The position numbers and the translations under genes are program-made. A stretch of DNA of 64,000 bases from Sporomusa sphaeroides DSM 2875 (GTDB taxonomy: Bacteria > Bacillota > Negativicutes > Sporomusales > Sporomusaceae), in the NCBI RefSeq assembly GCF_001941975.2, contig NZ_CP146991.1, forward strand, positions 3,159,001 to 3,223,000. Reading direction: 5' to 3'. Positions 4,684 to 26,558 of this stretch are shown here, one piece after another. Under the pieces are notes generated by a model. That model made no database searches. It had not been told where the DNA came from and saw only the letters and a list, made by a program, of their open reading frames with translations. The stretch's first letter is position 1. The number at the start of each line of letters is the position of its first letter.

Positions 4684-4740
4684 ATCCAGTCCCTCCCAGT
4701 GAAATTACGGGCAACTGGCAAGGGATCATTGATATGATTA

Positions 4741-5958: not shown

Positions 5959-5995
5959 ATACATTCACTCCCGTCATCGATAATCGCCATAGGTT

Positions 5996-6814
5996 TCAGA
6001 TAACTAAAAAACACATGGTGGCTACCCCAATTTGCAACGGGTCATGCAGTATTTGGGCAAAGTGTTTCCCGCACTGTTCTGCCGGTACTCCTAAAGGAAC
6101 TCCCGGCGCGGCGATGATTGTGCGCTCGGTAATATATGCAGGACGAATAACATTCTCTGCCGGAGAAGCGTCCACTATAACCAGGTGCTTGCTTAAAGCA
6201 TAATCCAAATCTGTTTCCAACTTGGCCGGATATCCTTGTCGCCTCAGCTCATCAACCAATGCCCGGCTGGCGGTTACATCGATATCATATATGGAAACCA
6301 ATCCTCCCAGTTTGACGATTAAACCGGCCGCGCCTCTGCCTACCGCCCCGGCACCAATAACAAGCACATGCTTTTCCGTCAAACCGCAGCACATCTGGTT
6401 TAAGGCCGTTACATAGCCCTGGCCTGTCGCTTCGCTGTTATCGGCTATCGCACCGGTTCTTAGATTAAAGGCAATAAACTTATCATCATCGGCTGCAAAC
6501 AATATCTCAGCACCATGTAAGATAGCTTCAGCAATACCTGCGATATCATAGCTTGTAGTAATAAAAGTATCGAAACCCAGATGATCCAGGATACCGGCCA
6601 CTGCCTCAGTAAAGCCGCCAATAATTCCCTGGCCGCCGGTAATAGGAATAACCGCAATTTTGGATTGGGCCACTGAGATAGTGCTCAAATCCCTATTCGC
6701 AGCACGAGCCGCGATTGATTTTAGGTTACATCCTGTCTTGCTAATTAACTCAACATCGTATTTCGTTAGTCTGGCCGCAATCTGATTAACATCGTCTGCT
6801 TTTAGTCGTGTCAT
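5996..6814 (-). CDS. pylD: PylD: pyrrolysine synthase (dehydrogenase), copy 1
   Basis: Oxidises the terminal amine of L-lysine-N(epsilon)-3R-methyl-D-ornithine, after which the product cyclises to pyrrolysine. The 272-aa protein has an NAD-binding Rossmann stretch, VLVIGAGAVGRGAAGLI, with the glycine-rich GxGxxG motif, then VSIYDIDVTASRAL. An N-terminal helical domain begins MTRLKADDV. Start 6814 matches the copy 2 start exactly and overlaps the 3' end of pylC by 29 nt. Coding order pylB-pylC-pylD-pylSn supports one operon. Confidence 0.92.
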   Translation of the reverse strand: MTRLKADDVNQIAARLTKYDVELISKTGCNLKSIAARAANRDLSTISVAQSKIAVIPITGGQGIIGGFTEAVAGILDHLGFDTFITTSYDIAGIAEAILHGAEILFAADDDKFIAFNLRTGAIADNSEATGQGYVTALNQMCCGLTEKHVLVIGAGAVGRGAAGLIVKLGGLVSIYDIDVTASRALVDELRRQGYPAKLETDLDYALSKHLVIVDASPAENVIRPAYITERTIIAAPGVPLGVPAEQCGKHFAQILHDPLQIGVATMCFLVI

Positions 6815-8012
6815 TGCACCATCCCCCACGCGTTTCTAATGACATACCCTCAGCTCCACTTGCGGGATAACAGTCATAATAGTTGCTAATTCGGCAGGAC
6901 TGCCTGATCTTGTAAATAATACCCTCTCTTTTATTCCATGCCTCCGGCATATGCGCACCGGTGATGATGAGCGTAGCTACCCATTCTTTTTTGCCTGGAG
7001 AGTAAGTTGTCAGCGCTTCATCTGCTCCAAAAAAATCTGTACACAGACGAAGCGGCTCACCGGCGTCAGGTAGAATGTGTTCACCCAAAACTTCAAGCTT
7101 ATCACCATTTACGCGGATATGTTCGTAGATCACGCCTCTTTTCGCTTTGATGTCGAAATCCTCCCACGGGGTTCCTTGGACAAACGCCTTGCCGAGAATC
7201 TCCAGCATATTAATGCCGGTGGCATGATACACCGCCGTCGGGGTTTGACTGGGAATCCGGGCATCTATTTCCAAAACTTTTAGTTGGCCTGCATGGAGAA
7301 TGGCTTCTACATCCATAACTCCATTGAGATGCAAAAATCCAGCCAAACTAAGCGCGATGTGTTCGAAGCTTGCTTGCTGTCCTTTTGTCAGCACTGCCGT
7401 ACCGAGCACCCGCTTGCAGTCATATTGGGCGTCCAGTTGAATCTCGGTAATTTGCAAGGCCTTATATACTCCCTGGCAGCCAATGACCTCGATTGAATAA
7501 GAGGGTCCTTCCAGATATTCCTCAATTACCATATCAGCTATAGCTTTTTCAACTTGCAAACGCTTGAGCGCCTGAGCATTGTCCACCTTAATCACACCCT
7601 CACTGCCACTAGCCCCGGAGGGTTTTATAATAATAGGAAAACCACATCGTGGCCATGGTTTGGGTGCAGGGATGGAAAGGCGGTTAAATACTTCGTTGGA
7701 AGTAATTTTTGAGGAAGAAACAGCATAAGCCTGCTCGTCAAAAAGCAAAGGTACATTTGAATATTTAGCGCTGCTGGCTAAACAGTCTAACGCCTCTTTG
7801 TTTTCTAATGCCGGGATAACGAGATCAATTTTTTTCAATAACATTAGCCACTCGTCCCGATGCGTAACATCCATTGCCTGGAAATGGTCACCGATTGCCG
7901 CAGCCAAAACCCCAGGCTTTTTATCGACAACGAAAACTTCCCAGCCCGCTTTTTTAGCCAGATACGCAGCTTCGACTCCCTGAAGCTTGCCGCCGACGAT
8001 GGCAACTTTCAT
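6786..8012 (-). CDS. pylC: PylC: 3-methylornithine-lysine ligase, copy 1
   Basis: An ATP-grasp ligase joining D-3-methylornithine to the epsilon-amine of lysine. The 408-aa protein begins with a nucleotide-fold segment (KVAIVGGKLQGVEAAYLAKK), followed by the ATP-grasp core: FPIIIKPSGASGSEGV (ATP-binding lysine region), VIEEYLEGPSYSIEVIG, and LEIDARIPSQTPTAVYHATGINM (Mg-ligand region). The C-terminus runs 29 nt into pylD and ends in a tail unlike copy 2, where the stop overlaps the pylD start by 4 nt (ATGA); a small indel near the 3' end is the likely cause. Expected to work normally, since the tail lies outside the fold. Confidence 0.92.
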   Translation of the reverse strand: MKVAIVGGKLQGVEAAYLAKKAGWEVFVVDKKPGVLAAAIGDHFQAMDVTHRDEWLMLLKKIDLVIPALENKEALDCLASSAKYSNVPLLFDEQAYAVSSSKITSNEVFNRLSIPAPKPWPRCGFPIIIKPSGASGSEGVIKVDNAQALKRLQVEKAIADMVIEEYLEGPSYSIEVIGCQGVYKALQITEIQLDAQYDCKRVLGTAVLTKGQQASFEHIALSLAGFLHLNGVMDVEAILHAGQLKVLEIDARIPSQTPTAVYHATGINMLEILGKAFVQGTPWEDFDIKAKRGVIYEHIRVNGDKLEVLGEHILPDAGEPLRLCTDFFGADEALTTYSPGKKEWVATLIITGAHMPEAWNKREGIIYKIRQSCRISNYYDCYPASGAEGMSLETRGGWCNDTTKSRRC

Positions 8013-8030
8013 TATGAATCCCCCTTCCGG

Positions 8031-9176
8031 CTAATGGCGTTGTACAACCCAGTTTGTATAGGTTTCTTTCGTTTCGTTAATCTGCCTATGGGAAGGAGCG
8101 AGTCTTGCCAAACGGGCCAATACCCATTCCATATATTCTTCCATACTAGCCCGTTCGAGACCGCATTGCGCTAATATCGGCAGGATGCTGTCAACGCTAC
8201 GGTTACCGTCATCGATATCCAGCTCCTGATTGGATACGCCGGCCAGGCCGGCCTCTGGCGGAATGATCGAGGTTACGACATTGGCGCCGGCGTTAAGGCG
8301 GTCAGCTAAACCATGGATACCATCCACATCCAAAGACGCGGGAATCAGACGGTTGGGAAAGACCAGGCGCATGATGGCAATCATCAATAATTCTCTCGTC
8401 CGCGGGAGCGACGGGACGTGCTGCATGGGTGTATCCTTTTGCGGTACAAAGCTCATAATTCGTACCTGATCAGCTCCCAGGCTTCTCATGGCCGCCAGGG
8501 AATCAATCAAATCCTCATATCTTTCCCCGACACCGGTCAGTAAGCCCTCCTCAATCAGGAAACCCATATCCCGGGCTTCCTTTTTTCGTTCCATTCGTTC
8601 CGAGAAGCTTTGGCTTATTCTTAGTTTTGCATATAAGCCAGGGTTATGGGTTTCCTGATAGCAGGCATACCACTCGGCACCGGAATCTTTAAGCGCTCTT
8701 AATACATCTTCCGGGACGACGCCTGCCGAAATCATAATCGGTATGTCGGTGTCTTCCTTGATGGCCCTCACCGTTCTTACCAGCGAATCAAAGCCGGCTC
8801 CATTATTGCTATAATACCGGGGATCTTCCCCCATCGTTAAATCCAGCAAGTGTACTCCGGATTTCACCAGCCGGTAAGCGGTCTCCATAATTTCCGCCGG
8901 GGTTTTATGATAGCGGGATAACGATTGATTGGATTTACGATATAAACAGAAAGCACACTCATTTCGACAATAGGTTGAAAAATAAACGAAACCATAGAGA
9001 AATATTCTATTCTTAAAATATCGATGCCTGAGCATTCTGGCTATGGCAAATACCCTGGCGATATCATCTTCTGCGGAAAGTCCCAATAAATATAAAAGCT
9101 CAGCCCTGGTCAGCGGCTCTTCCTCCAAAGCTTTTCCCAATATCCTGATCAAGGTGGCAGGTTGTTGCAGCCCCAT
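8031..9176 (-). CDS. pylB: PylB: methylornithine synthase (radical SAM), copy 1
   Basis: Isomerises L-lysine to (3R)-3-methyl-D-ornithine, the first step of pyrrolysine synthesis. The 381-aa protein has the radical-SAM cluster motif CRNECAFC (Cys 70, 74, 77; C-x3-C-x2-C), preceded by LYGFVYFSTY, then LLDLTMGEDPRYY, GAEWYACYQETHNPGLY, GVGERYEDL and VMSFVPQKDTPM-like segments characteristic of PylB and its BioB/HydE-like barrel. The ATG 9176 start is preferred (AGGTAGGTG upstream) and gives the same length as copy 2. It lies between pylSc and pylC. Confidence 0.93.
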   Translation of the reverse strand: MGLQQPATLIRILGKALEEEPLTRAELLYLLGLSAEDDIARVFAIARMLRHRYFKNRIFLYGFVYFSTYCRNECAFCLYRKSNQSLSRYHKTPAEIMETAYRLVKSGVHLLDLTMGEDPRYYSNNGAGFDSLVRTVRAIKEDTDIPIMISAGVVPEDVLRALKDSGAEWYACYQETHNPGLYAKLRISQSFSERMERKKEARDMGFLIEEGLLTGVGERYEDLIDSLAAMRSLGADQVRIMSFVPQKDTPMQHVPSLPRTRELLMIAIMRLVFPNRLIPASLDVDGIHGLADRLNAGANVVTSIIPPEAGLAGVSNQELDIDDGNRSVDSILPILAQCGLERASMEEYMEWVLARLARLAPSHRQINETKETYTNWVVQRH

Positions 9177-9228
9177 GAAAATCACCTACCTTTTAAAGTA
9201 CATTTAGCTTCCTGCTATTTCTTTGGCC

Positions 9229-10062
9229 TTAAATATTTAATCGTACTCCGTCCAGGTAACTAAGACTTCTTCCCATACTCTGAACATTTTGCGCTCCCTC
9301 CCTAACCATTAACAAACGTTCGAGGCCAAAGCCTATGCCTATCCAAGGCGCGGTGATTCCCCATTTTTTATCAAGTACATGCGGCCCCATGGCGCCTGAA
9401 CCTAATTCAATACCCTTCATCACATCCAAGGTATCGCCATACACGACAGAACTGGTTACTTCCAGCTGATATTCATCAATACCGGCGACAGACATAACCA
9501 ATGCAGCCATTTCTTCCAAGCGTTGCTGCCTCTCGTTAAGGGGTAACCCTAATTCGGTTATATTGAGCATGGTAAACTCGTTGAGATGCAATCCCCCCTG
9601 GGATTCCTTACGATAACAGGTGCCGATTTCAAAAAGGCGAATCGGCGGCTGCCATAAGCGCAGCAAATCTTTCCATAAGGTGTACAGATTTGGCGCCAGC
9701 ATCGGCCGCAGGCACCGCTTGGCATCAAGCCAAAATACCTGGGAAAATAGTGGATGCTTATCGTCTATAGACATTTTCGCCAAAGAACCCTTAGCTATAA
9801 TTGTCGGTGTCATGACCTGAACGAATCCCCGGAGGTTCAGGGCTTCGGTAAGTTGCTGTTCAAGCCTGCTCAGCAACGGCCGCTTAATAAATTTTTGAAA
9901 TTGCGCCAAATGGCGTCTTCCTTTAGTCACAAACTGCCTCTCCAGGTCTTGAAACGCAAAATCACGCTCGCTGGCTGATTCAAAACGTTGTTCTTGCAAA
10001 GTTGAGCTGATATTAAGTTCTTTTAACCGCTGCTTTTGTATGGATGTCCAGGTAATATCCAC
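9229..10062 (-). CDS. pylSc: PylSc: catalytic domain of pyrrolysyl-tRNA synthetase, copy 1
   Basis: A class II aminoacyl-tRNA synthetase catalytic domain (277 aa) that charges tRNA-Pyl with pyrrolysine. Motif 2 is FEIGTCYRKESQGGLHLNEF and motif 3 GIGFGLERLL. Compared with Methanosarcina mazei PylS, the pocket residues Tyr306 (LAPNLY), Asn346 (TMLN), Tyr384 (VYGDTLDV) and Trp417 (PWIG) are kept, while Cys348 is Thr. The GTG start sits 7 nt after AAGGAGG, and only 22 nt after the 3' end of pylT1, so tRNA and mRNA are probably cotranscribed and separated by RNase cleavage. Confidence 0.94.
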   Translation of the reverse strand: MDITWTSIQKQRLKELNISSTLQEQRFESASERDFAFQDLERQFVTKGRRHLAQFQKFIKRPLLSRLEQQLTEALNLRGFVQVMTPTIIAKGSLAKMSIDDKHPLFSQVFWLDAKRCLRPMLAPNLYTLWKDLLRLWQPPIRLFEIGTCYRKESQGGLHLNEFTMLNITELGLPLNERQQRLEEMAALVMSVAGIDEYQLEVTSSVVYGDTLDVMKGIELGSGAMGPHVLDKKWGITAPWIGIGFGLERLLMVREGAQNVQSMGRSLSYLDGVRLNI

Positions 10063-10084
10063 CTAGCTGCCTCCTTGAAATTGT

Positions 10085-10156
10085 TGGCGGGGAGTACGGG
10101 AGTTTCACCCGCCTGCGCGAATTTAGAGTCCACGTGATCCATCCGATCCACCCCCC
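10085..10156 (-). tRNA. pylT: tRNA-Pyl (CUA anticodon), copy 1
   Basis: A 72-nt amber-suppressor tRNA with CCA encoded. It folds with a 7-bp acceptor (GGGGGGT/ACTCCCC), only one base between acceptor and D stem, 4-bp D stem (GATC/GATC) with a 5-nt loop, 6-bp anticodon stem around CTCTAAA (anticodon CTA), a 3-nt variable loop and a T loop TGAAACT lacking TTC. These are the hallmarks of tRNA-Pyl, and the sequence closely resembles my memory of the Desulfitobacterium hafniense gene. It differs from copy 2 at positions 17 and 25; position 25 gives U-G here against C-G there. Confidence 0.97.
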
Positions 10157-14302: not shown

Positions 14303-14668
14303 TCAGTACATTCTCTTATATTTCTTTATAAATTCTATTGCCTGTTCCAATTCCTCCGGGCTAATTTTAGCTTTTACAGCCTGGTCCACCACCCCGAAAT
14401 AGTTGGGATAGTTTTCATCCTTGAATATGGCTGTCAAGTGATTATTAAATGTAATCTGTTCCAGCGTCTTTACATCTTCACGCAGAAAGAATTCAACCGG
14501 AATGTATAGTTTATTAGCCAATAACGCAATCTTGTCACGACCAAATTTCCGGCGATTGTTTTCCACATGGGATATATAGGATTGTGTCACATTTAATAAC
14601 CGTGCTAATTGCTCGGTAGTCAGCGAAAACTTCTTGCGTATATAGCGCACTTTTTCTCCAAAATTCAT
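14303..14668 (-). CDS. Small XRE-family regulator at the end of pyl cassette 2
   Basis: A 121-aa paralogue of the protein at 4327-4683, with Ile for Val10, Thr and Lys at two further sites, and an Arg-Met-Tyr tail. The N-terminal HTH is intact (SLTTEQLARLLNVTQSYISH). ATG 14668 follows GGGAGGG; the upstream in-frame TTG is too close to the Shine-Dalgarno. Placed 57 nt behind mtgA2, as in cassette 1. The high conservation against more diverged pylC/pylD copies hints at recent gene conversion or strong selection. Function is not known. Confidence 0.8.
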   Translation of the reverse strand: MNFGEKVRYIRKKFSLTTEQLARLLNVTQSYISHVENNRRKFGRDKIALLANKLYIPVEFFLREDVKTLEQITFNNHLTAIFKDENYPNYFGVVDQAVKAKISPEELEQAIEFIKKYKRMY

Positions 14669-14725
14669 ATCCAATCCCTCCCAGTGAAATTACGGGCAAC
14701 TGGCAAGGGATCATTGATATGATTA

Positions 14726-15520
14726 CTATTCAAGCAGTTTATCGCGATAAGCCTGAAGGTAGTTCATACAATACTCGTCTTTCCCCCGTAACGCTTCGGC
14801 AGCAATAATGCTGGCCATGAACTCTTTATCAAGCGGGTTCATAATCATGCCGTCAAGACCGCGATCTATCGCCATAATGCCAAAGGTTCTATTGAGAAAC
14901 TTACGCAACGGCAGGCCAAAAGAGATGTTAGATAAGCCACACATCGTGTGAACGCCGGGATAATTGTCCATAATCATCTCAATCGCCTTCAGAAATTCGA
15001 TACCGTAAATGTCACTGGTGGATAACGGCTGTACCAGAGGATCGACGTAAATCTGATCAAGCGACAGTCCTTTTTTGACAAGGCGGTTAATGAGTTCATC
15101 AGCAATTTTGACTCTGGCCGCTGCCGTTTCCGGCATACCATCATCACTCATGCATAAGGCGACGACTTTATGAGCTGTTCCACTCACTAAGGGTATGAAG
15201 GCATCATATCTTTCTTTCTCCAGTGAAATGGAATTGAGCATTGCCGGCCCTTTGTGAACCGCTAATGCGGCCTCAATGGCTTTCGGGTCAGGGCTATCAA
15301 TACAACAAGGGCCATCAACAACTGCCTGGACTAATTGAACCAACCATTTTAGGTAGTCAGCCTCTTCGCCGACAAAAATTCCTGCATTCACATCAATATA
15401 GCTGGCCCCGGCCATATGTTCATCTTTAGCCACTTGTTGAATATAGCTGGCATCGTTATTTCTGATGGCTTCCGCAATTGGCTTGCGACTGGCGTTAATC
15501 AGTTCGCCGACAATAATCAT
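14726..15520 (-). CDS. mtgA: Methylcobamide:tetrahydrofolate methyltransferase, copy 2
   Basis: A 264-aa pterin-binding methyltransferase paralogous to 4741-5535, with roughly twenty substitutions by eye, most in surface-like regions (for example KDEHMAGASY for KDEQASGANY), and the same pterin-site sequences (YIDVNAGIFVGEE, CCIDSPDPKA). It follows mtbB-mtbC directly, so methyl groups from dimethylamine and trimethylamine can be passed to THF. ATG 15520 was chosen on the GGGAG at 8 nt. It again ends TAG-TAA. Confidence 0.85.
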   Translation of the reverse strand: MIIVGELINASRKPIAEAIRNNDASYIQQVAKDEHMAGASYIDVNAGIFVGEEADYLKWLVQLVQAVVDGPCCIDSPDPKAIEAALAVHKGPAMLNSISLEKERYDAFIPLVSGTAHKVVALCMSDDGMPETAAARVKIADELINRLVKKGLSLDQIYVDPLVQPLSTSDIYGIEFLKAIEMIMDNYPGVHTMCGLSNISFGLPLRKFLNRTFGIMAIDRGLDGMIMNPLDKEFMASIIAAEALRGKDEYCMNYLQAYRDKLLE

Positions 15521-15556
15521 AACATTCACTCCCTGTAATAATGATAGGAAAGTTTT

Positions 15557-16207
15557 TTAGGCTTCCAGCAGTTTCAACACCTTGGTAACGGCTTCTGCTG
15601 CGTCTTCGGCGTAGGCGTCGGCGCCAATGCGGTCAGCCCATCTTTGAGTCGCCGGCGCACCGCCGACAATGGTTTTATATTTTCCTCTCAGATTGCTCTG
15701 TTTCAAGACCTCTTCTAATTTTTTCTGTTCAACCAAAGTAGTTGTCAGCAAAGCGGATGTCCCAATAATATCCACTTGGTACTCCTCCGCCTTTTCTATA
15801 ATGGTGGCTACAGGCACATCCCGGCCTAAGTCAATAACATCTATCCCTTGGGTTTTAATTAAGGAAACAACGATGCCTTTGCCAATATCGTGAACATCGC
15901 CCTCAACAGTCGCCATAATCATCCTGCCTGTATGTCCCTTGTTTTCACCTTTCGCCTGGAGCGCCTCGTCAAGAACAGCAGTGGCTTTTTTCATGACTTC
16001 GGCAGCGGAAATTAACTCTGGCAAAAACATCCGGCCTTTGCCGAAAAGGTCGCCAACCTGCCTGATTCCTTCGCTGTAGCCTTGTGACAAAATGATAATG
16101 GGGTCAACGCCGGACGCCAGTGTTTTTTTAGCGGTTTCAAGCGCAGCATCCAGATCCTGTTTAAGAATGCTGGCGATTGCCGCTGAAATTAAAGCATCTT
16201 GGGTCAT
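15557..16207 (-). CDS. mtbC: Dimethylamine corrinoid protein
   Basis: A 216-aa B12-binding methyl carrier with N-terminal helical cap (about 1-90) and VEGDVHDIGKG, where His106 is the cobalt ligand, followed by VIDLGRDVP and VGGAPATQRWADRIGADAY. ATG 16207 was chosen as it lies 11 nt from AAAGGAG; the longer in-frame start lacks support. It sits 36 nt after the mtbB stop and just before mtgA2, so it should be the partner of MtbB. Cassette 1 has no counterpart. Confidence 0.9.
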   Translation of the reverse strand: MTQDALISAAIASILKQDLDAALETAKKTLASGVDPIIILSQGYSEGIRQVGDLFGKGRMFLPELISAAEVMKKATAVLDEALQAKGENKGHTGRMIMATVEGDVHDIGKGIVVSLIKTQGIDVIDLGRDVPVATIIEKAEEYQVDIIGTSALLTTTLVEQKKLEEVLKQSNLRGKYKTIVGGAPATQRWADRIGADAYAEDAAEAVTKVLKLLEA

Positions 16208-16243
16208 ACTATTCTTCGCTCCTTTCTCTCCACTCAAATTCAA

Positions 16244-17635
16244 TTAAATTTTAGACATTTTATTGAAACGCGTAACGGAATTAATCTCAATATCCAGTAT
16301 TTGGGCAATGCGGCTCTTCGCCGCCAGGGCATCGGCAGATTCCGGCCGCGCATTGGTTTCGCCGATATTCAATTGATTGCGGATATCCCTCATTACAGAA
16401 GAATCATGCAAATCGCTTAAACTGATCTTCAGTTTATCAGCGACATACTGTTTAGCCGCATCAATACGAAGTCCCTTAGCCATTTGAACCCGGGCCACCA
16501 GATCTCCGGAGGTCCTGATTCCACTCATCCCGGCTGCGACTCCATGATTGATAGGCATACCATAACAATCACCTACGCCTATCTACAACCCGTCAATCTT
16601 ACAAATCTCCACAAGCGCTTTATCCGCGCGGGAGGCAGCGTCCAAAGGAACGGCATCTGTCAGCGGCATACCGCAGACCCCCATGCCTACGTTGGGGTGA
16701 ATAGGAATATTGCTCACCTCACTGCAGGCCTTCACGAATGTGCAGACCCGGGCGATATTCCAGGGGAAGGATTGGCTGCTATTGGTATTGACGGTGGGGC
16801 CAAAGATGGTCACCCCGGCAGCCTCCGCCAGTTTTACCTGCTCATGAGGATACAGACCAGCCAGGGTCTTACCTTCAAACTGCAGGCCGCCATGCATGCC
16901 GAGGATGAATTCTCCGGCCATCCCCAGTTCAATGGCAAAATCGGGATGCATTTCCCGGATCTTTTTCACAGCCCTGAAAGCAGCCAGCGCATCGGCATCA
17001 CCGGAAGCGCCCACAGTATCAAGATTAATGCCATCGGCACCGGCCTCATACATTTTATGGGCGACAGTAACGATGTCTCTTATCGAATGTTCCACTGCCT
17101 CTTCCTGGGCCTCCCGGGCGGCGGCAATCTTCCCGGCAGGCAGAAGTTCTGCCCAATTTCCCACAGGCCCGTCAGGCTTGGTATATAGACCCAAATTGGG
17201 CATGGCACCGTAAAATACCGGTATGATGGTATTAAGCTGAGCATGATGCATGGCGCAAACCTCGTCATGAATGATGCCTTTGATGGGTTTATAGCTATAA
17301 TCGATATGGGCCAGTTCCGCAGAATCCATACATAAAATCTTTTCATTGATCAACAACGCTGTAGTTCTGTCGATAGACAGACCGCAGCGCACGGAAACTT
17401 TTAAAGTTCCCTCATCATTGGTCATGACAACTTCTTTCCCTGGTTCTACCGTCACAAACTTTGCCGGCATTGTACAAATTTCCAGGAGATGCTCTTGCTC
17501 CTCAGCCGTCAGTGGCGGAATTTGACCCCTTTCCGCCGCATCCTGGGTGCCGAGCAGGATTTCTTCCCGGATTTCATCCATTGTCATTTCGGCCCCATAG
17601 CCATCTCCATAACGGACAAAATATTTCTTTGCCAT
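16244..17635 (-). CDS. mtbB: Dimethylamine:corrinoid methyltransferase with in-frame pyrrolysine codon
   Basis: Demethylates dimethylamine to monomethylamine, methylating MtbC. The frame is interrupted only by TAG at 16583-16585, residue 351, in the context KIDGL-Pyl-IGVGDCYGMPINH, matching Methanosarcina MtbB Pyl356 (VDGI-Pyl-IGVGDPMGMPISH). Other MtbB stretches are HIDYSYKPIKGI, IPVFYGAMPNLGLY, GADGINLDTVGASGD, ELGMAGEFILGMHGGLQ and TNTNSSQSFPWN-like VNTNSSQSFPWNIAR. Full length is 463 aa against about 467. The start follows AAGGGGG. The gene is placed between pylSn2 and mtbC, so it depends directly on the cassette that decodes it. Confidence 0.96.
16583..16585 (-). other. In-frame amber codon decoded as pyrrolysine in mtbB
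   Basis: TAG at codon 351, aligned gap-free with the pyrrolysine of Methanosarcina MtbB. Confidence 0.95.
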
Positions 17636-17761
17636 AGATACGCCCCCTTCTTCTCTCTATTTTCTAAATTTCCCTTGGTATTACATAAGCCCCCCCTCCT
17701 TTCGCAGCTTGCGTCTTTTGCGCAAAGGATATGGATAAGAAAACCACGGGATTTTTTTTAT

Positions 17762-18085
17762 CTATAAAGTAGCTCCATAGCTTTGGCTCATATACGTTCC
17801 CGCGTATTTCTCCAGTTTCCACTGGGGAATTTTGCAGATACGGCAGGAATGAAAAAATAATTTATTGCGTAAACAGCGGGCAGCCCGGCTATGCTTCGAA
17901 TTTTGTATCAGGAATGTTTCATTGCAATGGGTAGTAATTTCTGCGGTGTTGCCGATAATCTTCATACTTTTGATGCCGTGCAGTTTCCCGCTTCTTGAGG
18001 GCCAAAGCTTAAGTTTGGTAACAAGTTTAAAAAAGTCGACATTTTTGCGATAATAGCGCTTCTGCTTGGTTGCGGTAAGGGCCAT
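17762..18085 (-). CDS. pylSn: PylSn: tRNA-Pyl-binding domain of pyrrolysyl-tRNA synthetase, copy 2
   Basis: A 107-aa protein with the same PylSn hallmarks as copy 1: LWPSRSGKLHGIKSMKI, SKHSRAARCLRNKLFFHSC and CRIC. ATG 18085 is 9 nt after GGGAG. It ends in TAG (17762-17764) rather than TGA. If that amber were read as pyrrolysine, translation would continue for 26 further codons, rich in Arg and Lys, to the TAA of the ATG-TAA pair at 17691-17696. The 126-nt gap before mtbB holds that start-stop pair and the mtbB ribosome-binding site and nothing else. Confidence 0.93.
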   Translation of the reverse strand: MALTATKQKRYYRKNVDFFKLVTKLKLWPSRSGKLHGIKSMKIIGNTAEITTHCNETFLIQNSKHSRAARCLRNKLFFHSCRICKIPQWKLEKYAGTYMSQSYGATL

Positions 18086-18123
18086 ACACCTTCACTCCCG
18101 TCATTCATAATCGCCCAAAGTCT

Positions 18124-18942
18124 TCAGATAACTAAAAAACACATGGTAGCTACCCCAATTTGCAACGGGTCATGCAGTATTCTGGCACTGTGTTTCCCGC
18201 GCTGTTCTGGCGGTACCCCTAAAGGAACTCCCGGCGCTGCGATGATTGTGCGCTCGGTAATATGCCGGGGAGGAATAACAGCCTCCGCCGGCGAGGCGTC
18301 CACTATAACCTGGTGCCTGCTTAAAGCATAATCCAAATCAGTCTCCACCTTGGCCGGCTGCCCTTGTTTCCTCAGCTCATCAACTAACGCCCGGCTGGCG
18401 GTTACATCGATATCGTATACGGAAACCAGTCCTCCCAGTTTTGCGACCAAACCGGCCGCGCTCCGGCCTACCGGCCCGGCGCCAATAACAAGCACAGGCT
18501 TTTCCGTCAACCCGCAGCACATTTGGTTTAAGGCCGTTATGTAGCCCTGGCCTGTCGCTGCTCCATTATCGGCTATCGCCCCGGTTCGCAGATTAAAAGC
18601 AATAAACTTATGATCATCGGCCGCAAATACCACCTCGGCCCCACCGTGTATAGCTTCGGCAATACCGGCAACATCAGAGTTTTGGGTAATAAACGTATCA
18701 AAACCAAGATAATCCAGGATACCGGCCACTGCCGCAGTAAAGCCGCCAATAATTCCCTGGCCGCTGGTAACAGGAATAACAGCGATTTTAAGGCGGGACG
18801 CTGAGATATGGTCCAAGTCCCGCTGGGCAGCCCGGGCGGCAATGGCCTTCAGACTGCACCCCGTCTTGCTGATTAACTCAACATCATACTGCGTTAGTCC
18901 GGCTACCACTTTACTGATATCGTCTGCTTTCAGCCGTGTCAT
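18124..18942 (-). CDS. pylD: PylD: pyrrolysine synthase (dehydrogenase), copy 2
   Basis: 272 aa, same length as copy 1, with NAD motif VLVIGAGPVGRSAAGLV (GxGxxG) and VYDIDVTASRALVDEL. Its ATG overlaps the pylC stop as ATGA, the usual translational coupling. Substitutions relative to copy 1 are spread over the protein rather than clustered at the cofactor site, so the two are likely isofunctional. Confidence 0.92.
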   Translation of the reverse strand: MTRLKADDISKVVAGLTQYDVELISKTGCSLKAIAARAAQRDLDHISASRLKIAVIPVTSGQGIIGGFTAAVAGILDYLGFDTFITQNSDVAGIAEAIHGGAEVVFAADDHKFIAFNLRTGAIADNGAATGQGYITALNQMCCGLTEKPVLVIGAGPVGRSAAGLVAKLGGLVSVYDIDVTASRALVDELRKQGQPAKVETDLDYALSRHQVIVDASPAEAVIPPRHITERTIIAAPGVPLGVPPEQRGKHSARILHDPLQIGVATMCFLVI

Positions 18943-20135
18943 TGTCCCCCACCCGCTTCTGCTGCACCGGTTTCAACCTCAACCGTGGGATAACGCTCAC
19001 AATAATGTTGAAGCCGGCAGGCTTGCTTAATCGCACCCATAATCCGCTCCCGCTTATTCCATGCCGCCCGCATGGTCGCGCCGGTGATGATGAGAGTAGC
19101 TACCCACTCGTTTTTGCCTGGTGAATACGTTGTCAGTGCTTCATCTGCTCCGAAAAAATCTGTACACAGGCGAAGCGGCCCGCCGGCGTCAGGCAGAATA
19201 TGTTCACCCAACACTTCAAGGGTATCGCCCTTTACGTGAATGTGCTCGTAAATGGCGCCTCTTTTCGCTTTGATGCTAAAGTCCTCCCACGGGCTTCCTT
19301 GGACAAATGCCTTACCGAGAAGCTCCAGCATATTAATACCGGTGGCATGATAAACGGCTGTCGGGGTTTGACTGGGAGTCCGGGCATCGATTTCCAAAAC
19401 TTTTAGCTGGCCTGCATGGAGAATGGCTTCTACATCCATAATTCCATTCAGATGCAAAAAGTCAGCCAAATTTAGCGCGATCTGCTCGAAGCTTTCTTGC
19501 TGTCTTTTTGTCAGCACCGCCGTACCTAGCACCCGTTTGCAGTCATATTGGGCATCCAGCTGAATCTCGGTAATTTGCAAGGTTTTATATACGCCCTGGT
19601 AGCCAATGACTTCAAGCGAATAAGAGGGGCCTGACAAATATTCTTCAATCACGGTATCGGCTATAGACCTTTTAACCTGCAAACGCTGAAGCGCCTGAGC
19701 AGTTTCCACCTTAATCACTCCCACACTCCCGCTAGCGCCGGAAGGCTTGATAATAATAGGAAAACCACACCGCGGCCAAGGCACAGGCGCGGGGATGGAA
19801 AGGCGCCTGAAGATTTCGTTGGAAATAATTTTTGAGGAAGAAATAGAATATGCGTTCTTGTCAAAAAGCAAAGGTACCTTTGCGTATTTGGCACTTCTGA
19901 CTAAACAGGTTAACGCTTCTTTGTTTTCTAACGCCGGGATAACCAGGTCGATATTTTTTAAAAACAGTAACCAATCGGCCCGATGAGTGACATCCATGAC
20001 ACAGAAATGATCACCGATTGCCGCAGCCAAGACCTCAGGTTTTTTATCAACAACGAAAACTTCCCAGCCCGCTTTTTTAGCCAGATATGCAGCTTCGACT
20101 CCCTGGAGCTTGCCGCCGACGATGGCAACTTTCAT
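18939..20135 (-). CDS. pylC: PylC: 3-methylornithine-lysine ligase, copy 2
   Basis: A 398-aa ATP-grasp ligase with FPIIIKPSGASGSVGVIK, VIEEYLSGPSYSLEVIG and LEIDARTPSQTPTAVYHATG. Start 20135 is set by a GGGGGG ribosome-binding site and by alignment with copy 1; the frame is open further upstream but only across the pylB end. The C-terminal tail differs from copy 1, and the stop overlaps the pylD start. Confidence 0.92.
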   Translation of the reverse strand: MKVAIVGGKLQGVEAAYLAKKAGWEVFVVDKKPEVLAAAIGDHFCVMDVTHRADWLLFLKNIDLVIPALENKEALTCLVRSAKYAKVPLLFDKNAYSISSSKIISNEIFRRLSIPAPVPWPRCGFPIIIKPSGASGSVGVIKVETAQALQRLQVKRSIADTVIEEYLSGPSYSLEVIGYQGVYKTLQITEIQLDAQYDCKRVLGTAVLTKRQQESFEQIALNLADFLHLNGIMDVEAILHAGQLKVLEIDARTPSQTPTAVYHATGINMLELLGKAFVQGSPWEDFSIKAKRGAIYEHIHVKGDTLEVLGEHILPDAGGPLRLCTDFFGADEALTTYSPGKNEWVATLIITGATMRAAWNKRERIMGAIKQACRLQHYCERYPTVEVETGAAEAGGGQ

Positions 20136-20158
20136 TATGAATCCCCCCTTCCGGAGCT

Positions 20159-21304
20159 TTAATGACGTTGTACAGCCCAGCCTGTATAAGTTTCTTTCAC
20201 TTCGTTGTTCAGCCGCTGGCAAGGAGCGAGTCTTGCCGAACGGGCTGATACCCATTCCGTATATTCTTCCATACTGGCCCGCACCAGACCACATTGCGCT
20301 AATACCGGCAGGATACTGTCAACCGTACGGTTACCGTCATCGATATCCAGTTCCTGATTGGATACGCCGGCCAGACCGGCCTCCGGCGGAATGATCGAGG
20401 TTACGACATTGGCGCCGGCGTTAAGGCGGTCAGCTAAGCCATGGATACCGTCCACATCCAAAGATGCGGGGATCAGACGGTCGGGAAAGATTAAGCGCAT
20501 GATTGCAATCATCAATAATTCTCTCGTCCGCGGCAGCGACGGAACATGCTGCATGGGTGTATCCTTCTGCGGTACAAAGCTCATCACCCGTACCTGATCT
20601 GCGCCCAGGCTCCTCATAGCCACCAGGGAATCAATCAAATCCTCATACCTTTCCCCGACCCCGGTCAGTAAGCCCTCCTCAATCAGGAAGCCCATATCCC
20701 GGGCTTCCTTTTTTCGTTCCATTCGTTCAGAAAAGCTTTGACCTAGTCTTAGTTTTGCATATAAGCCGGGGTTATGAGTCTCCTGATAGCAGGCATACCA
20801 CTCGGCACCGGAATCTTTAAATTGCTGTAATACGTCTTCCGGGACGACGCCTGCCGAAATCATAACCGGTATATCTGTACTTTTCTTTATAGCCCGCACC
20901 ATTGCTATCAGCGGCTCAAAACCGGCGCCATTATTGCTATAATACCGGGGGTCTTCCCCCATCGTTAAATCCAGTAAATGTACTCCGGATTCTACCAGCC
21001 GGTAAGCCGTTTCCATGATCTCGGCCTGGCTTTTATGATAACGGCGCAACGCTTGGTTGGACTTACGATATAAGCAGAACGTGCACTCATTGCGACAGTA
21101 TGTTGAAAAATAAACGAAACCATAGAGAAATACTTTATTCTTAAAGTAGCGATTCCTAAGCATTCTGGCTATAGCAAATACGCTGGAGATTTCATCCGCT
21201 GAGGAAATTCTCAATAAATATAAAAGCTCAGCCCTGGTCAGCGGCTCTTCCTCCAAAGCTTTTCCCAGTATCCTGGTCAGGATAGCCGGTTGTTGCAGTG
21301 CCAT
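20159..21304 (-). CDS. pylB: PylB: methylornithine synthase (radical SAM), copy 2
   Basis: 381 aa with the radical-SAM motif CRNECTFC, then LLDLTMGEDPRYY, GAEWYACYQETHNPGLY, VRVMSFVPQKDTPMQHV and GIHGLADRLNAGANV. It is highly conserved against copy 1 in the central barrel and varies most near the two ends. The first ATG after AGGTAGGTG was used. It lies 23 nt ahead of pylC. Confidence 0.93.
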   Translation of the reverse strand: MALQQPAILTRILGKALEEEPLTRAELLYLLRISSADEISSVFAIARMLRNRYFKNKVFLYGFVYFSTYCRNECTFCLYRKSNQALRRYHKSQAEIMETAYRLVESGVHLLDLTMGEDPRYYSNNGAGFEPLIAMVRAIKKSTDIPVMISAGVVPEDVLQQFKDSGAEWYACYQETHNPGLYAKLRLGQSFSERMERKKEARDMGFLIEEGLLTGVGERYEDLIDSLVAMRSLGADQVRVMSFVPQKDTPMQHVPSLPRTRELLMIAIMRLIFPDRLIPASLDVDGIHGLADRLNAGANVVTSIIPPEAGLAGVSNQELDIDDGNRTVDSILPVLAQCGLVRASMEEYTEWVSARSARLAPCQRLNNEVKETYTGWAVQRH

Positions 21305-21357
21305 CAATCATCACCTACCTATAGAAATGCATTGGCTTTTTCCAGCTTTGTCAGGAC

Positions 21358-22191
21358 TTAGATATTTAATCGCACTCCGTCCAGGTAACTTAGACTTCTT
21401 CCCATACTCTGGACATTTTGCGCCTCCTCTTTAACCATTAACAAGCGTTCCAGCCCAAAACCGATTCCTACCCAGGGGACAGTGATACCCCATTTTTTAT
21501 CAAGTACATGCGGTCCCATGGCGCTGGAACCCAACTCAATGCCTTTTATCACATCCAAGGTATCGCCATACACGACAGAACTGGTTACTTCCAGCTGATA
21601 TTCATCAATACCGGCGACAGACATAACCAATGCAGCCATTTCTTCCAGGCGTTGCTGTCTCTCGTTAAGAGGTAACCCCAATTCGGTTATATTGAGCATG
21701 GTAAATTCATTGAGATGCAATCCCCCCTGGGATTCCTTGCGATAACAGGTGCCGATTTCAAAAAGGCGGATCGGCGGCTTCCATAAGCGCAGCAAATCTT
21801 TCCATAAGGTGTACAGATTCGGCGCCAGCATCGGCCGCAGGCACCGCTTGGAATCAAGCCAAAATACCTGGGAAAATAACGGATGCTGATCGTCGACCGA
21901 CATTTTTGCCAAAGAGCCCTTGGATATAATTGTCGGCGTCATGACCTGAACGAATCCCCGCAGGTTCAGGGCTTCGATAAGTCGCTGTTCAAGTTTGCTC
22001 AACAGCGGCCGCTTACTATTGTTCTGAAATTCCGTTAAGTGCTGCCGTCCCTTAGCCACCAACTGCCTCTCCAGGTCTTGAAACGAAAAATCACGCTCGT
22101 TGGCTGATGCAAAACGCTTTTCCTGGCAAACCGGACTGGCATTAAGTTCTTTTAACCGTTGTTTTTGTATGGGTGTCCAGGTAATATCCAC
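21358..22191 (-). CDS. pylSc: PylSc: catalytic domain of pyrrolysyl-tRNA synthetase, copy 2
   Basis: 277 aa, with motif 2 FEIGTCYRKESQGGLHLNEF and motif 3 GIGFGLERLL identical to copy 1; all pocket residues visible in copy 1 (Tyr306, Asn346, Thr at 348, Tyr384, Trp417 by M. mazei numbering) are the same, so no change of substrate is indicated. Differences concentrate in the N-terminal 65 residues, which would face the tRNA. GTG start 7 nt after AAGGAGG, 23 nt behind pylT2. Confidence 0.94.
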   Translation of the reverse strand: MDITWTPIQKQRLKELNASPVCQEKRFASANERDFSFQDLERQLVAKGRQHLTEFQNNSKRPLLSKLEQRLIEALNLRGFVQVMTPTIISKGSLAKMSVDDQHPLFSQVFWLDSKRCLRPMLAPNLYTLWKDLLRLWKPPIRLFEIGTCYRKESQGGLHLNEFTMLNITELGLPLNERQQRLEEMAALVMSVAGIDEYQLEVTSSVVYGDTLDVIKGIELGSSAMGPHVLDKKWGITVPWVGIGFGLERLLMVKEEAQNVQSMGRSLSYLDGVRLNI

Positions 22192-22214
22192 CTAGATACC
22201 TCCTTGTAAAGTAG

Positions 22215-22286
22215 TGGCGGGGAGTACGGGAGTTTCACCCGCCTGCGCGAATTTAGAGTCCGCGTGATCTATCCGATCCACCCCCC
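22215..22286 (-). tRNA. pylT: tRNA-Pyl (CUA anticodon), copy 2
   Basis: 72 nt, CCA encoded, same cloverleaf as pylT1 with a 3-nt variable loop, 5-nt D loop and a single linker base between acceptor and D stems. It differs at position 17 (A for G, D loop) and 25 (C for T, which restores C-G in the anticodon stem). Acceptor, anticodon loop and T arm, which PylS contacts, are identical, so cross-charging by both synthetases is expected. Confidence 0.97.
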
Positions 22287-22320
22287 ATAATCTTCACGTT
22301 AACTGGTTTGCTTATCAGTT

Positions 22321-22338
22321 ATGCAAAATCGATGCCAA
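22321..22338 (-). promoter_or_regulatory. Sigma-54 promoter of pyl cassette 2
   Basis: On the minus strand TTGGCATCGATTTTGCAT: GG and GC separated by exactly 10 nt, close to the -24/-12 consensus TTGGCAC-N5-TTGCW. The predicted start lies about 12 nt downstream, some 25 nt before pylT2. Confidence 0.75.
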
Positions 22339-22353
22339 GAGTAAGAGCAAAAC

Positions 22354-22388
22354 AAAGGAGCTGCCTGTGACACTATGGCTGCTCCTTT
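22354..22388. promoter_or_regulatory. Inverted repeat in the pylT2-mttC control region
   Basis: 12-nt arms (AAAGGAGCTGCC and GGCTGCTCCTTT, one mismatch) around 11 nt, directly upstream of the cassette 2 sigma-54 promoter. Its place suggests a binding site for the sigma-54 activator, although an upstream terminator-like structure cannot be excluded. A second, weaker inverted repeat lies at 22588-22605 (ACCGA/TCGGT), just upstream of the mttC promoter. The rest of 22287-22841 has no gene. Confidence 0.45.
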
Positions 22389-22638
22389 CTATTTCCAGTA
22401 ATACTATGAACTTTTCACTTGCAGATATTTTTGATACCGGTTGCCTGTTTTTCTCTTTCCTGCTTGCCAACTCCTGGTAAAAGGTGAAAAAAAAAATTAC
22501 ACTGTGAAAAAAATCTTTACATATTTTTCCACCGGCAATCACTAATCCGGACCTCTGCTTGCAAAACTTTTTCCGGCAGGTAGCCGCACCGACAGCTATA
22601 TCGGTCTAATTCGCAAATAAAATCATTCCTGTTTTACA

Positions 22639-22656
22639 TTGGTATTATTCTTGCAA
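22639..22656 (+). promoter_or_regulatory. Sigma-54 promoter of mttCB
   Basis: TTGGTATTATTCTTGCAA, with the invariant GG and GC exactly 10 nt apart. It is followed by a leader of about 180 nt to mttC. Confidence 0.8.
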
Positions 22657-22841
22657 TAAGTTTGAAATGAGAAACCAAATTGCAAATTCACAACCCTTCA
22701 CCCTCCGGGTGGCAGGAATGTGTGAATGACCTTTGGTTACCTACTATCCATTCCCGGCTGCTATGCTGCCGGTCAGGAGGTGATAAGTAACTAAAACGTT
22801 ATTGGTTATGGCACACAAAATGTAGAGAAGGAGTGGAGAAG

Positions 22842-23474
22842 ATGGCGAGTTTTGAAAGCTTAGCCCAAAGTGTTATTTCCGGGCGGGAAGGTCAGGTTAA
22901 AGAACAGGTACAGGCCTTGATTGATTCCGGTACAAATCCCTTGGCTATTATTACTGACGGATTGATTAACGGAATGAATGTAGTTGGTGCCAGGTTTAAA
23001 GTAGGGGATATGTTTGTGCCGGAGGTTTTGCGTGCCGCCAAAGCCATGTCCGCCGGTCTTGCTATAGTTAAGCCCCACATAGCCGACAAAGATATGCCTG
23101 CCACAGGAACAGTTGTAATCGGCGCGGTTCAGGGCGACCTTCATGATATCGGTAAAAACCTCGTAGTCATGATGTTGGAAGGCGCCGGCTTTAAGGTTAT
23201 TGACCTGGGTATCGACATTTCCACCGAGAAGTTTATTGCTGCCGTCAAAGAACACAAAGCAACCATTTTGGCCATGGCGGCACTCTTAACCACCACCATG
23301 CCTGTTATGCAACATGCTATAGAATTACTGACCGAAGAAGGGCTGCGCGACACAGTGAAAGTAATCATCGGCGGCGCTCCGGTAACGCAAGATTTTGCAA
23401 ACCAGATTGGCGCTGACGGCTACGCGTCGGATGCAGCCATCGCGGTTGATATATGCAAGGAATGGGTCGCTTAA
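22842..23474 (+). CDS. mttC: Trimethylamine corrinoid protein
   Basis: A 210-aa B12-binding methyl carrier partnering MttB. The helical cap occupies residues about 1-80, then QGDLHDIGKN with His101 as cobalt ligand, VIDLGIDIS and IIGGAPVTQDFANQIGADGYASDA. ATG 22842 was taken because AAGGAG lies 8 nt away; an in-frame GTG 9 nt upstream overlaps the Shine-Dalgarno. First gene behind the sigma-54 promoter, 30 nt ahead of mttB. Confidence 0.93.
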   Translation: MASFESLAQSVISGREGQVKEQVQALIDSGTNPLAIITDGLINGMNVVGARFKVGDMFVPEVLRAAKAMSAGLAIVKPHIADKDMPATGTVVIGAVQGDLHDIGKNLVVMMLEGAGFKVIDLGIDISTEKFIAAVKEHKATILAMAALLTTTMPVMQHAIELLTEEGLRDTVKVIIGGAPVTQDFANQIGADGYASDAAIAVDICKEWVA

Positions 23475-23504: not shown

Positions 23505-24980
23505 ATGAAAAGAAATCTGCCGTCAGGTCATTATAACTGGGTCGGCTGCGGCATTCAGCTTTTTTCTGATTTTGATGTGGAAGCCATCCATTGCAGTACA
23601 TTGGAAGTGCTGGAGAAAACCGGCATAAATGTAAAAAGCGATAGAGCTATTGATATTTTCGAACAAGCAGGCGCTGATGTCGACCGTGAAAATAAAATTG
23701 TGCGGATTCCTGTCTGGATGGTGGAGGAAGCCGTGCGCACCGCTCCCAGAAAAATACTGTTAGCGGGAAGAGACCCTGAAAATGATATCATTGTAGAATA
23801 TGGACGGGTCTACGTCACTCCCTTTGGGACAGGCGTAACGGTTATTGACCCTTATACCGGCGAATGCCGGCCGTCAACAAAAAAAGACATTGAGCAGCTT
23901 GCCACAATTACCGACTATCTGGATCAAATGGATGTGTGCTGGGATACTGTAATTCCCAGAGATGTCAACCCGCATACGGTTTGCCTGCATTCTTATGAAG
24001 CGCATGTAGCCAACACCACTAAGCACATGTTTGTCAGCCCCGAAAATACGGAAACAGCCCAGCTTCTCATTGAAATGGCCGGGAAGGTTGTCGGCGGCAA
24101 AGAAAATCTAAAAGCCCGGCCGATCATTACCGGTCTGGGCTGCCCGATAAGCCCTCTGACCTGGCCTGAGTTTCTCAGTGACAGCCTAATTGAATTTGCC
24201 AAAGAGGATCTCCCCTTCCTCGTACTTACCATGGCTATGGCCGGCGGTACCGGGCCTGTTACTCTGGCAGGTACTTTAGTTACGATCAATGCCGAAATAT
24301 TAACAGGCGTAGTCTTAAGTCAGCTGGTCAAAAAAGGAGCTCCCGTAATTTACGGCAGCTCAACCACCAACTTTGATTTGAGAAAAGCAACCGCTACGGT
24401 AGGCAGCCCGGAGTTAGGGCTAATTAGTGCCGGTGTGGCCAAAATGGCGCAGTATTATAACCTGCCCAGTTTTGTTGCCGGTGGATAGGCAGACAGCAAA
24501 GTGTCTGATTTGCAAACAGGTCTTGAAAAGACTGTAACTTACCTGTTACCGATGCTGGCAGGCGCCAACATCATCTATGGTTCAGGGATGTTAGAGCTTG
24601 GCATGACTTTTAGTTACGGACAATATGTTGCCGATAATGAAATTGTCCGTGTACTCAGAAGAACCCTTGAGGGTATTCCGGTTAGTGAGGATACTATGGC
24701 TTTGGATGTGGTCAGCAAGGTAGGACCCGGCGGCCACTATCTCTTAGAAGACCATACTTCCGACCGGATGAAAACGGCTCATGTACTTCCCAAATTCATT
24801 GACCGTGACAACCGGTCCGAATGGGTCAAAAACGGCAGCGTCACCTTTATTGATTCAGCTACCAAGAAGGCTATCGATATTATCGAAAACCACAAGGCGA
24901 AACCGCTGCCCGCTACTGTCCTCAAAGAACTCCGCGCCATTGTCGAGCAAGCCGACAAAGACATGACGGGGCATAAATAA
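23505..24980 (+). CDS. mttB: Trimethylamine:corrinoid methyltransferase with in-frame pyrrolysine codon
   Basis: Demethylates trimethylamine to dimethylamine, methylating MttC. TAG at 24486-24488 (residue 328) interrupts an otherwise open 491-aa frame in the context PSFVAGG-Pyl-ADSKVSD, at the site of Methanosarcina MttB Pyl334. This marks a true trimethylamine enzyme rather than a pyrrolysine-less MtgB-type betaine methyltransferase. MttB-family segments include EVLEKTGINVKSDRAIDIFEQAGADVD, YVTPFGTGVTVIDPYTGE, AMAGGTGPVTLAGTLV and GGHYLLEDHTSDRMKT. RBS AAAAAGGAG. The MtgA-type acceptor enzyme is supplied from the pyl cassettes. Confidence 0.96.
24486..24488 (+). other. In-frame amber codon decoded as pyrrolysine in mttB
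   Basis: TAG at codon 328; the frame continues without any other stop to TAA at 24980 and both halves are colinear with MttB. Confidence 0.95.
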
Positions 24981-25127: not shown

Positions 25128-26558
25128 TTAAATTTCATAGGTTTTTATCTTATAATGTAAATTCTGCCGGGAAATATTTAATTCTTTGGCCGTCTTGGAT
25201 ATGTTGCCGGCGTTTCTTAATAAGGCATCCTTAATGAGTCTTCTTTCAATCTCCAGTAAAGTTCCGGAAAAGGTGGTATTGGAAGTTTGCAATTCCGGGT
25301 AACCTGTTTTCGGCTTACCATTGATTCTGTTTTTAAAATGGGGGGGCAAGTGCTTAAATTGCAGGAGTGACTCTTCACTCCCCACAAAATGCATTGCGGT
25401 TTCAATAGCATTTTCCAGTTCCCGTACATTACCCGGCCAATGGTAGCTTTCCAGCAGTTCAAGTAGTTTATCGGCTATCTCACTTATTACCAACCCAAAT
25501 TTACTACTTGCCCGTTTGGCGAAATACCGGGCTAAAAAAGTAACATCTCCCTGCCGCTCTCTCAGTGGTGGAATGTACAGAGTTACTTTGGCTAAGCGAT
25601 ACAGTAAATCAGACCGGAGGATCTCGTCATTATCAATAGAAAAAGGATCGGCGTTGGCAGCACTTATAATCCGGCAGTTTACCGGTGTTTCTTTTTTCCC
25701 GCCTATTCTTCTAATCACCCGGTCCTGCAGAACTCGCAACAGTTTGGCCTGAAGAAAAAATGGCATCGAGTTTATCTCATCTAAAAATATCGTACCGCCC
25801 TCGGCTTGCTCAAACAGGCCCGGCATATCAACAGCACCGGTAAAGGCGCCTCTCACGGTTCCGAATAGCACACTTTCCAGCAGTGTATCGGGAATCGCCG
25901 CACAATTAATCGGCACAAAAGGTCCCTCGGCAAAGGTACTGGCATTATGGATGCCTTGGGCAAAAAGCTCTTTTCCTGTTCCCGTCTCGCCAATAAGCAT
26001 CACGGGAGAGTTATAGCGCGCGAATTTTCGGGCTGTCAAAATAGCTTCGGTTATAGCATTACTTTCGCCGACAATATCACTAAGACAAAAGTTTGCGCCC
26101 GTTGTTTTCGGGTCTTCCTGATTTGTTATCCACTTGTGAATTTCCAGTGTTTTAGCGATGTATTCACCCATAGTCTCCATATTGCGGCCGATTACATACA
26201 TCCCGGCTATCGCATCTTTATAAAAAAACGGGTAAGCATTAAAAACTATATAGGTTTTTCTCCCGTCTCTGAGCAGGTACTGGTATTGCTGGTCGAATAG
26301 CGGCTCACCGGTATCTAATACTTTTTCGCATACATTTTCAGAGAAATCGGGGCAATGATTAAAGGTCTCCTTTTGTGTTCTGCCAACTACGTCCTTCCTA
26401 TCTAGCTTTTCTATTTTTTCAGCCACAGGATTATACAAAACGATGTTATCTTTTTCATCAATAGCCAAAACATATTCATGAATTTTGTCAATAATATTCC
26501 TCAATAATTGATTCTCGCGTTCTAATTCTTCTAACCGGACAACATCTTTCTTCTCCAT
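25128..26558 (-). CDS. PAS-domain sigma-54-dependent activator, probable regulator of mttCB and pyl cassette 2
   Basis: A 476-aa enhancer-binding protein. Residues about 10-130 form a PAS sensor (VLAIDEKDNIVLYNPVAEKI, KTYIVFNAYPFF). The central AAA+ domain (about 165-390) has Walker A GETGTGKE, the sigma-54 contact loop GAFTGA and Walker B GGTIFLDEINS. The C-terminus is a Fis-type HTH (GNISKTAKELNISRQNLHYK). It lies convergent to mttCB, and the only clear -24/-12 promoters I found in the island are those of mttCB and pyl cassette 2, so those are the likely targets. The ligand is unknown; a methylamine or a redox signal through the PAS domain is possible. Confidence 0.88.
   Translation of the reverse strand: MEKKDVVRLEELERENQLLRNIIDKIHEYVLAIDEKDNIVLYNPVAEKIEKLDRKDVVGRTQKETFNHCPDFSENVCEKVLDTGEPLFDQQYQYLLRDGRKTYIVFNAYPFFYKDAIAGMYVIGRNMETMGEYIAKTLEIHKWITNQEDPKTTGANFCLSDIVGESNAITEAILTARKFARYNSPVMLIGETGTGKELFAQGIHNASTFAEGPFVPINCAAIPDTLLESVLFGTVRGAFTGAVDMPGLFEQAEGGTIFLDEINSMPFFLQAKLLRVLQDRVIRRIGGKKETPVNCRIISAANADPFSIDNDEILRSDLLYRLAKVTLYIPPLRERQGDVTFLARYFAKRASSKFGLVISEIADKLLELLESYHWPGNVRELENAIETAMHFVGSEESLLQFKHLPPHFKNRINGKPKTGYPELQTSNTTFSGTLLEIERRLIKDALLRNAGNISKTAKELNISRQNLHYKIKTYEI

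Follow-up and report, generated by a model that had tools for sequence, protein, structure and literature searches.

Genes around the mttC-pylT intergenic region

The window analysed here is a stretch of 64,000 nucleotides from the 5.0-Mb genome of Sporomusa sphaeroides DSM 2875, and all positions refer to it unless another locus is named. A tRNA-Pyl (CUA) gene, called by ARAGORN at 22215-22286 on the minus strand, and mttC, whose ATG lies at 22842 on the plus strand, are separated by an intergenic region of 555 bases. The tRNA gene is the first gene of pyl cassette 2, and is followed on the minus strand by pylSc (21358-22191, TIGR02367), pylB (20159-21307), pylC (18939-20186), pylD (18124-18942), pylSn (17762-18085, TIGR03912), mtbB with one in-frame TAG (16244-17635), a gene for an mtbC-like corrinoid protein (15557-16243), a gene for a methyltetrahydrofolate:corrinoid methyltransferase-like protein (14726-15529) and an XRE-type regulator gene. 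The last three proteins before the regulator were named from family profile matches, and mtbB probably shares a transcript with the pylT cassette. We take the three genes between pylSc and pylSn to be pylB, pylC and pylD from the conserved gene order. Cassette 2 contains pylT, a split pylSc/pylSn, pylB, pylC and pylD, as expected of a bacterial pyl operon, and its designation as cassette 2 in an earlier note on this DNA was borne out: a second tRNA-Pyl gene lies at 10085-10156.

On the plus strand, mttC (22842-23474, a corrinoid protein by family profile match) is followed by mttB (23505-24980), the gene of a trimethylamine methyltransferase. A PYLIS_3 match and one in-frame TAG are present in mttB. 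MttB scores 686.6 bits against TIGR02369 (cut-off 525), and its single internal stop was read through as TAG. The next gene (25128-26558, minus strand) is convergent with mttB and encodes a PAS/AAA+/Fis-type sigma-54 activator. The earlier note had described a PAS/AAA+/Fis activator with GAFTGA encoded next to mttB; the protein indeed contains PAS, Sigma54_activat and HTH_8 domains and the GAFTGA motif. It thus combines the features of an enhancer-binding protein, namely a GAFTGA-containing AAA+ domain for interaction with sigma-54 and a C-terminal domain for DNA binding.

The genome contains two pyl cassettes, cassette 1 at 4321-10156 and cassette 2 at 14303-22286. Their proteins are 81-97% identical, cassette 1 is the sister of cassette 2 on the PylSc tree, and both close with an XRE regulator gene and a gene resembling methyltetrahydrofolate methyltransferase. 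The neighbours of cassette 1 are mtmCB, which precedes it, and a PocR/AraC regulator. A group II intron with a reverse-transcriptase-like open reading frame lies at 2334-4177, which leaves about 150 bases to the distal end of cassette 1.

Two divergent -24/-12 sites

The intergenic region carries two putative sigma-54 promoters. The predicted promoter of the pylT cassette, TTGGCATCGATTTTGCAT, is located at 22321-22338 on the minus strand, with a predicted start at about 22311, some 25 nt before the tRNA; that of mttCB, TTGGTATTATTCTTGCAA, is located at 22639-22656 on the plus strand, with a predicted start at about 22666. Both 18-mers were described in the earlier note, and we found them at these positions and strands with a GG/GC spacing of 10 nt. 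They fit the pattern TTGGYAY-N5-TTGCW and stand back to back, 300 bases apart, facing outward to tRNA-Pyl and mttC, respectively. Genome-wide, this strict pattern has 53 matches, compared with 5 for the reversed pattern and 9 for a spacer lengthened by one, which suggests that most of the 53 matches are probably real. A gene for RpoN is present, with one match at G000:C1:3225872-3227239 (446 bits, cut-off 277.35). A sigma-54 tRNA gene is unusual in this genome. Of the 51 other strict matches, 30 could be viewed with their surrounding loci, and none of these 30 has a tRNA within 1.5 kb.

We also scored sites with a motif weighted by conservation (maximum 23.2). The pylT site has the top score in the window, 21.5 of 23.2. 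The mttC site scores 20.0 and ties with seven other places in the window, with two more scoring higher, so that the score alone does not single it out.

Conservation within Sporomusa

PylSc was found above the curated cut-off in nine of the 12 family genomes. The divergent mttC/pylT arrangement, together with an activator 70-78% identical to that of the window, is present in the window and in two other Sporomusa loci, L070 and L071. In all three, the activator gene is convergent with an mttB-family gene; that of L070 has only 49% identity to the MttB of the window, and in L071 the gene is the second of two. When the three loci are aligned, each -24/-12 site keeps 15 of its 17 columns, compared with 7 of 34 in the pylT leader and 5 of 33 in the segment upstream of the mttC site (22606-22638). 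In L069 (S. acidovorans), near-perfect sites are found in both directions within a different gene order. In the class to which the window belongs, 3 of 380 genomes, all of them Sporomusa, contain the exact combination of promoter and tRNA; this is a strict pattern that misses L069. By eye, the divergent sigma-54 sites of L069 (9120-9480) flank a direct repeat of about 60 bp, which resembles neither of the two enhancer patterns described below.

The mttC transcript would have a 5′ leader of about 175 nt. The segment 22656-22844 keeps 98 of 189 columns in the three Sporomusa loci, 22656-22800 folds better than shuffled sequences (z -2.4), and an extended Shine-Dalgarno-like sequence, AGGAGGTGAT, lies about 70 nt before the mttC start. 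The leader may be an RNA control element; it has no Rfam match at gathering scores. A TAG-ending leader peptide was considered and dropped, as by eye it is not conserved.

Sigma-54 sites at other tRNA-Pyl genes

A survey of sites upstream of tRNA-Pyl drew on the loci of the best 80 of 306 PylSc relatives in genome_contigs, 12 family stretches and the window; the 80 loci include neither Acetohalobium nor Desulfitobacterium hafniense. ARAGORN made 74 tRNA-Pyl calls, of which 64 were kept after copies with identical flanks and genes with less than 100 nt upstream had been dropped. A site scoring at least 21 lies within 160 nt upstream of 20 of these 64 distinct genes, compared with 0 of 64 for each of four controls (opposite strand, reversed motif, spacing +1 and spacing -1). 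At a score of at least 19 the count is 21, compared with 0, 2, 2 and 0 in the same order. The distance from site to tRNA is 28-48 nt in 19 of the 20 positives and 116 nt in the remaining one, L152. Three of the positives come from the type-1 Sporomusa loci (the window, L070 and L071), one from L069 and 13 from Desulfosporosinus; the last three belong to Candidatus Formimonas warabiya, a Clostridia MAG and the Bacillota MAG L152. We note that these 20 are far from independent, as 13 come from the single genus Desulfosporosinus. A site of at least 20 is absent within 160 nt of 43 of the 64 genes, and the tRNA-Pyl of L099 has a borderline site of 20.0.

The sites are located at the heads of operons. 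In a scan of the pyl genes of 81 loci (the 80 and the window), with a head defined as a gene that has no annotated same-strand feature ending within 200 nt, sites were found at 20 of 36 tRNA-Pyl heads, 13 of 20 pylB heads and 3 of 7 pylSn heads, and at none of 25 tRNA-Pyl genes that are not heads. Over the 374 genes scanned, there were 0 hits with the reversed or shifted motifs and 1 on the opposite strand. Twelve Desulfosporosinus cassettes (L083-L085, L088-L095 and L097) carry a second sigma-54 site before pylB, where 0.3-2.8 kb separate pylSc from pylB.

On a quick PylSc tree (LG+G4, SH-aLRT support only), all 19 sigma-54-pylT rows fall inside one clade of 25 rows (support 98), and the label requires 4 changes compared with a shuffled mean of 17.5. 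L152 was given no label on this tree and is placed outside the clade. Members of the same clade without a site of at least 20 within 160 nt are L086, L101, L109 and L098, the last being the same place as L072. A single origin of sigma-54 control at pylT with later losses is possible on this tree. In L072/L098 (Sporomusa malonica, 1-1082), tRNA-Pyl by eye directly follows an ethanolamine ammonia-lyase small-subunit-like gene.

No GG/GC site at all was found in the 160 nt upstream of the tRNA-Pyl of cassette 1, and sigma-54 control of this cassette was rejected on that ground. In the family cassettes in which pylT follows mtmB (L073 and L075-L079), no site of at least 19 occurs within 160 nt, and there is likewise none in L080, where mtmC was detected without mtmB. 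In the genome of the window, the cassette seems to have been duplicated, with one copy of the machinery coming under different control.

Activator types and candidate enhancers

Enhancer-binding proteins are expected to bind some 80-200 nt upstream of their promoters. Read on the minus strand, the sequence at 22484-22521 is a tandem of two TGTAA-N3-TTTTTTYC elements with a period of 20 bp, at 148-185 nt from the -24 GG of the pylT site and 120-157 nt from that of the mttC site. This tandem is a candidate shared enhancer. In the three Sporomusa loci, 22484-22523 keeps 27 of 40 columns. The tandem pattern fits the window, L070 and L071, and the shorter half element has one mismatch in one of the L071 copies; a search of the window's own genome with up to 3 mismatches gave this single match and no second tandem. 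We note that both enhancer patterns discussed here were derived from the very sequences that they match, in the case of the tandem from the window, L070 and L071.

The activators split into two types by identity and by their C-terminal helix. Type 1 comprises those of the window, L070 and L071, with relatives in L099 and L109 that are 53-58% identical to the type-1 proteins. Type 2, sampled where the activator lies in the same locus (L088, L089, L090 and L096), is 29-39% identical to the activator of the window and has a different C-terminal helix. In L099 and L109 there are four exact half elements of the TGTAA type. Each of the four precedes a sigma-54 site by 139-148 nt and is faced by a weaker second copy in inverted orientation; among the six sigma-54 sites scoring at least 21 in these two loci, two have no half element. 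Type 2 activators occur with an unrelated element, AAGTYA-N4-TGACTGA-N3-GAGTC-N5-TGACTT, which is present with up to 4 mismatches in 13 of the 15 sigma-54-pylT loci outside Sporomusa (L152 excluded) and starts 163-241 nt upstream of the sigma-54 site. The remaining two, L093 and L094, contain a similar sequence by eye; in L069, a single copy of the element with 4 mismatches is found close to the pylB site. The activator type and the DNA element thus vary together, which supports the partnership of both.

A proposed sigma-54 switch for a conditional genetic code, and its alternatives

The earlier note proposed that divergent sigma-54 promoters control both mttCB and the pyl cassette, tRNA included, and this proposal is supported by the enrichment of the motif over controls, the conservation of both sites and the survey of 64 genes. 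On this sequence evidence, both sites are very probably sigma-54 promoters that give joint control of the mtt and pyl genes, and we infer that they would depend on RpoN and on the activator encoded at 25128-26558. In general, a sigma-54 promoter gives almost no transcription unless an activator driven by ATP is present. In the mechanism that we propose, a sigma-54 and enhancer-binding-protein switch would turn on the conditional genetic code. The activator would bind the tandem at 22484-22521 and, by DNA looping, contact the sigma-54 polymerase of both promoters. Its PAS domain may respond to the substrate, either trimethylamine (TMA) or a signal derived from it; TMA as the signal is conjectural, suggested by the genes and by the TMA-dependent pyl expression reported for Acetohalobium. 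MttB and the UAG-decoding machinery would then be made at the same time. Transcription from the pylT promoter would extend through the minus-strand cluster as far as mtbBC, and processing of the long transcript would release tRNA-Pyl from its 5′ end.

In one alternative, a SigA promoter or read-through would account for the expression of cassette 2, and the GG/GC matches would be incidental. Some pyl cassettes indeed lack a site, and a sigma-70-like match on the minus strand (22673-22644, 9 of 12) points to pylT from about 350 nt away. However, this weak match is the only one in the intergenic region, where about 0.8 are expected by chance, and it overlaps the conserved mttC -24/-12 site, so it was rejected as a SigA promoter although it points to pylT. 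Together with the conservation of the sites and the 20-versus-0 result of the survey, this makes expression by SigA or read-through highly improbable.

Two other alternatives dispute only the activator step and leave the sigma-54 promoters themselves in place. The sigma-54 promoters may be real and served by another enhancer-binding protein of the genome, with the adjacent gene regulating something else. The genome has 44 places with PF00158, some of them weak, any of which might supply a different activator. Against this, in the window, L070 and L071 alike a type-1 activator gene converges on an mttB-family gene, the half element also accompanies the related activators of L099 and L109, and the tandem element is single in the genome; we therefore regard another activator as unlikely. 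It is less likely still that the activator binds the inverted repeats to which the earlier note had drawn attention, at 22354-22388 and/or 22588-22605. Both exist in the sequence as dyads, and the first is conserved in outline in the three loci. The second keeps only 1 of its 18 columns, which supports no function, and it was rejected as an activator site. The first behaves as a hairpin: its arms AAGGAGC/GCTCCTT are fixed, its inner stem changes in a compensatory manner, its loop measures 11, 7 and 7 nt, and the distance between the fixed arms varies by 4 nt, as is more readily expected of a hairpin than of a dimer site. This repeat also ends about 16 nt from the -24 box, which is close for an enhancer. 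This hairpin is possibly a terminator or insulator; a terminator scan of the intergenic region found none, with a loop limit of 8 that excludes the 11-nt loop. The repeats are thus probably not activator sites, and the tandem at 22484-22521 is the likelier enhancer candidate.

A wider reading is likely, held with less confidence than the promoters themselves. The conditional code would be under a sigma-54 enhancer switch in several Bacillota. In Sporomusa, Desulfosporosinus and Formimonas alike, tRNA-Pyl would have remained a sigma-54 gene even as activator and enhancer were exchanged, giving two activator types and two unrelated elements. The cassette of the window would have been duplicated, with the copy behind mtmCB having no sigma-54 promoter. 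Sigma-54 control would keep UAG unambiguous as a stop codon as long as the substrate is lacking. A defined promoter pair, an activator and a candidate enhancer would open the switching of a natural genetic code to direct tests.

Comparison with known systems

In Escherichia coli, FhlA and sigma-54 control formate hydrogenlyase and the selenocysteine enzyme FdhF; there too, sigma-54 and an enhancer-binding protein govern a recoded enzyme. To our knowledge, the selenocysteine tRNA and its machinery are not part of the FhlA regulon, whereas in the window the decoding tRNA and synthetase themselves are likely targets.

A similar outcome has been reported for Acetohalobium arabaticum, in which pylTSBCD is insufficiently expressed without TMA (Prat et al. 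2012, via PMC8318568 and PMC11467909). Such TMA-dependent expression is what the switch in the window would be expected to produce, but the passages of PMC8318568 and PMC11467909 on this system name no sigma-54 promoter or activator. Sigma-54 control of pyl genes or tRNA-Pyl was not found in the open-access literature searched. PMC12016528, the one paper in that literature to contain both pyrrolysine and sigma54, mentions them in unrelated places, and the Formimonas genome paper (PMC6778437) describes the pyl cluster with 0 occurrences each of "sigma" and "regulator".

Another close system is in the same genus. Start-site mapping in S. sphaeroides KIAC gave 24 promoters with TGGCA-N6-TTGC, attributed to SigL/sigma-54, several of them in a betaine cluster that includes a TMA methyltransferase and is activated on betaine (PMC12456013). 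The likeness extends to the promoter sequence, to sigma-54 activators within the cluster and to the TMA methyltransferase; it differs in that pyrrolysine, pylS and pylT are absent from the main text of that paper, whose passages on this cluster name no code-expansion genes as targets. Sigma-54 promoters in a betaine/TMA methyltransferase cluster of Sporomusa were known (PMC12456013), and what appears to be new, relative to the literature searched, is the extension of this control to the pyl genes and tRNA-Pyl.
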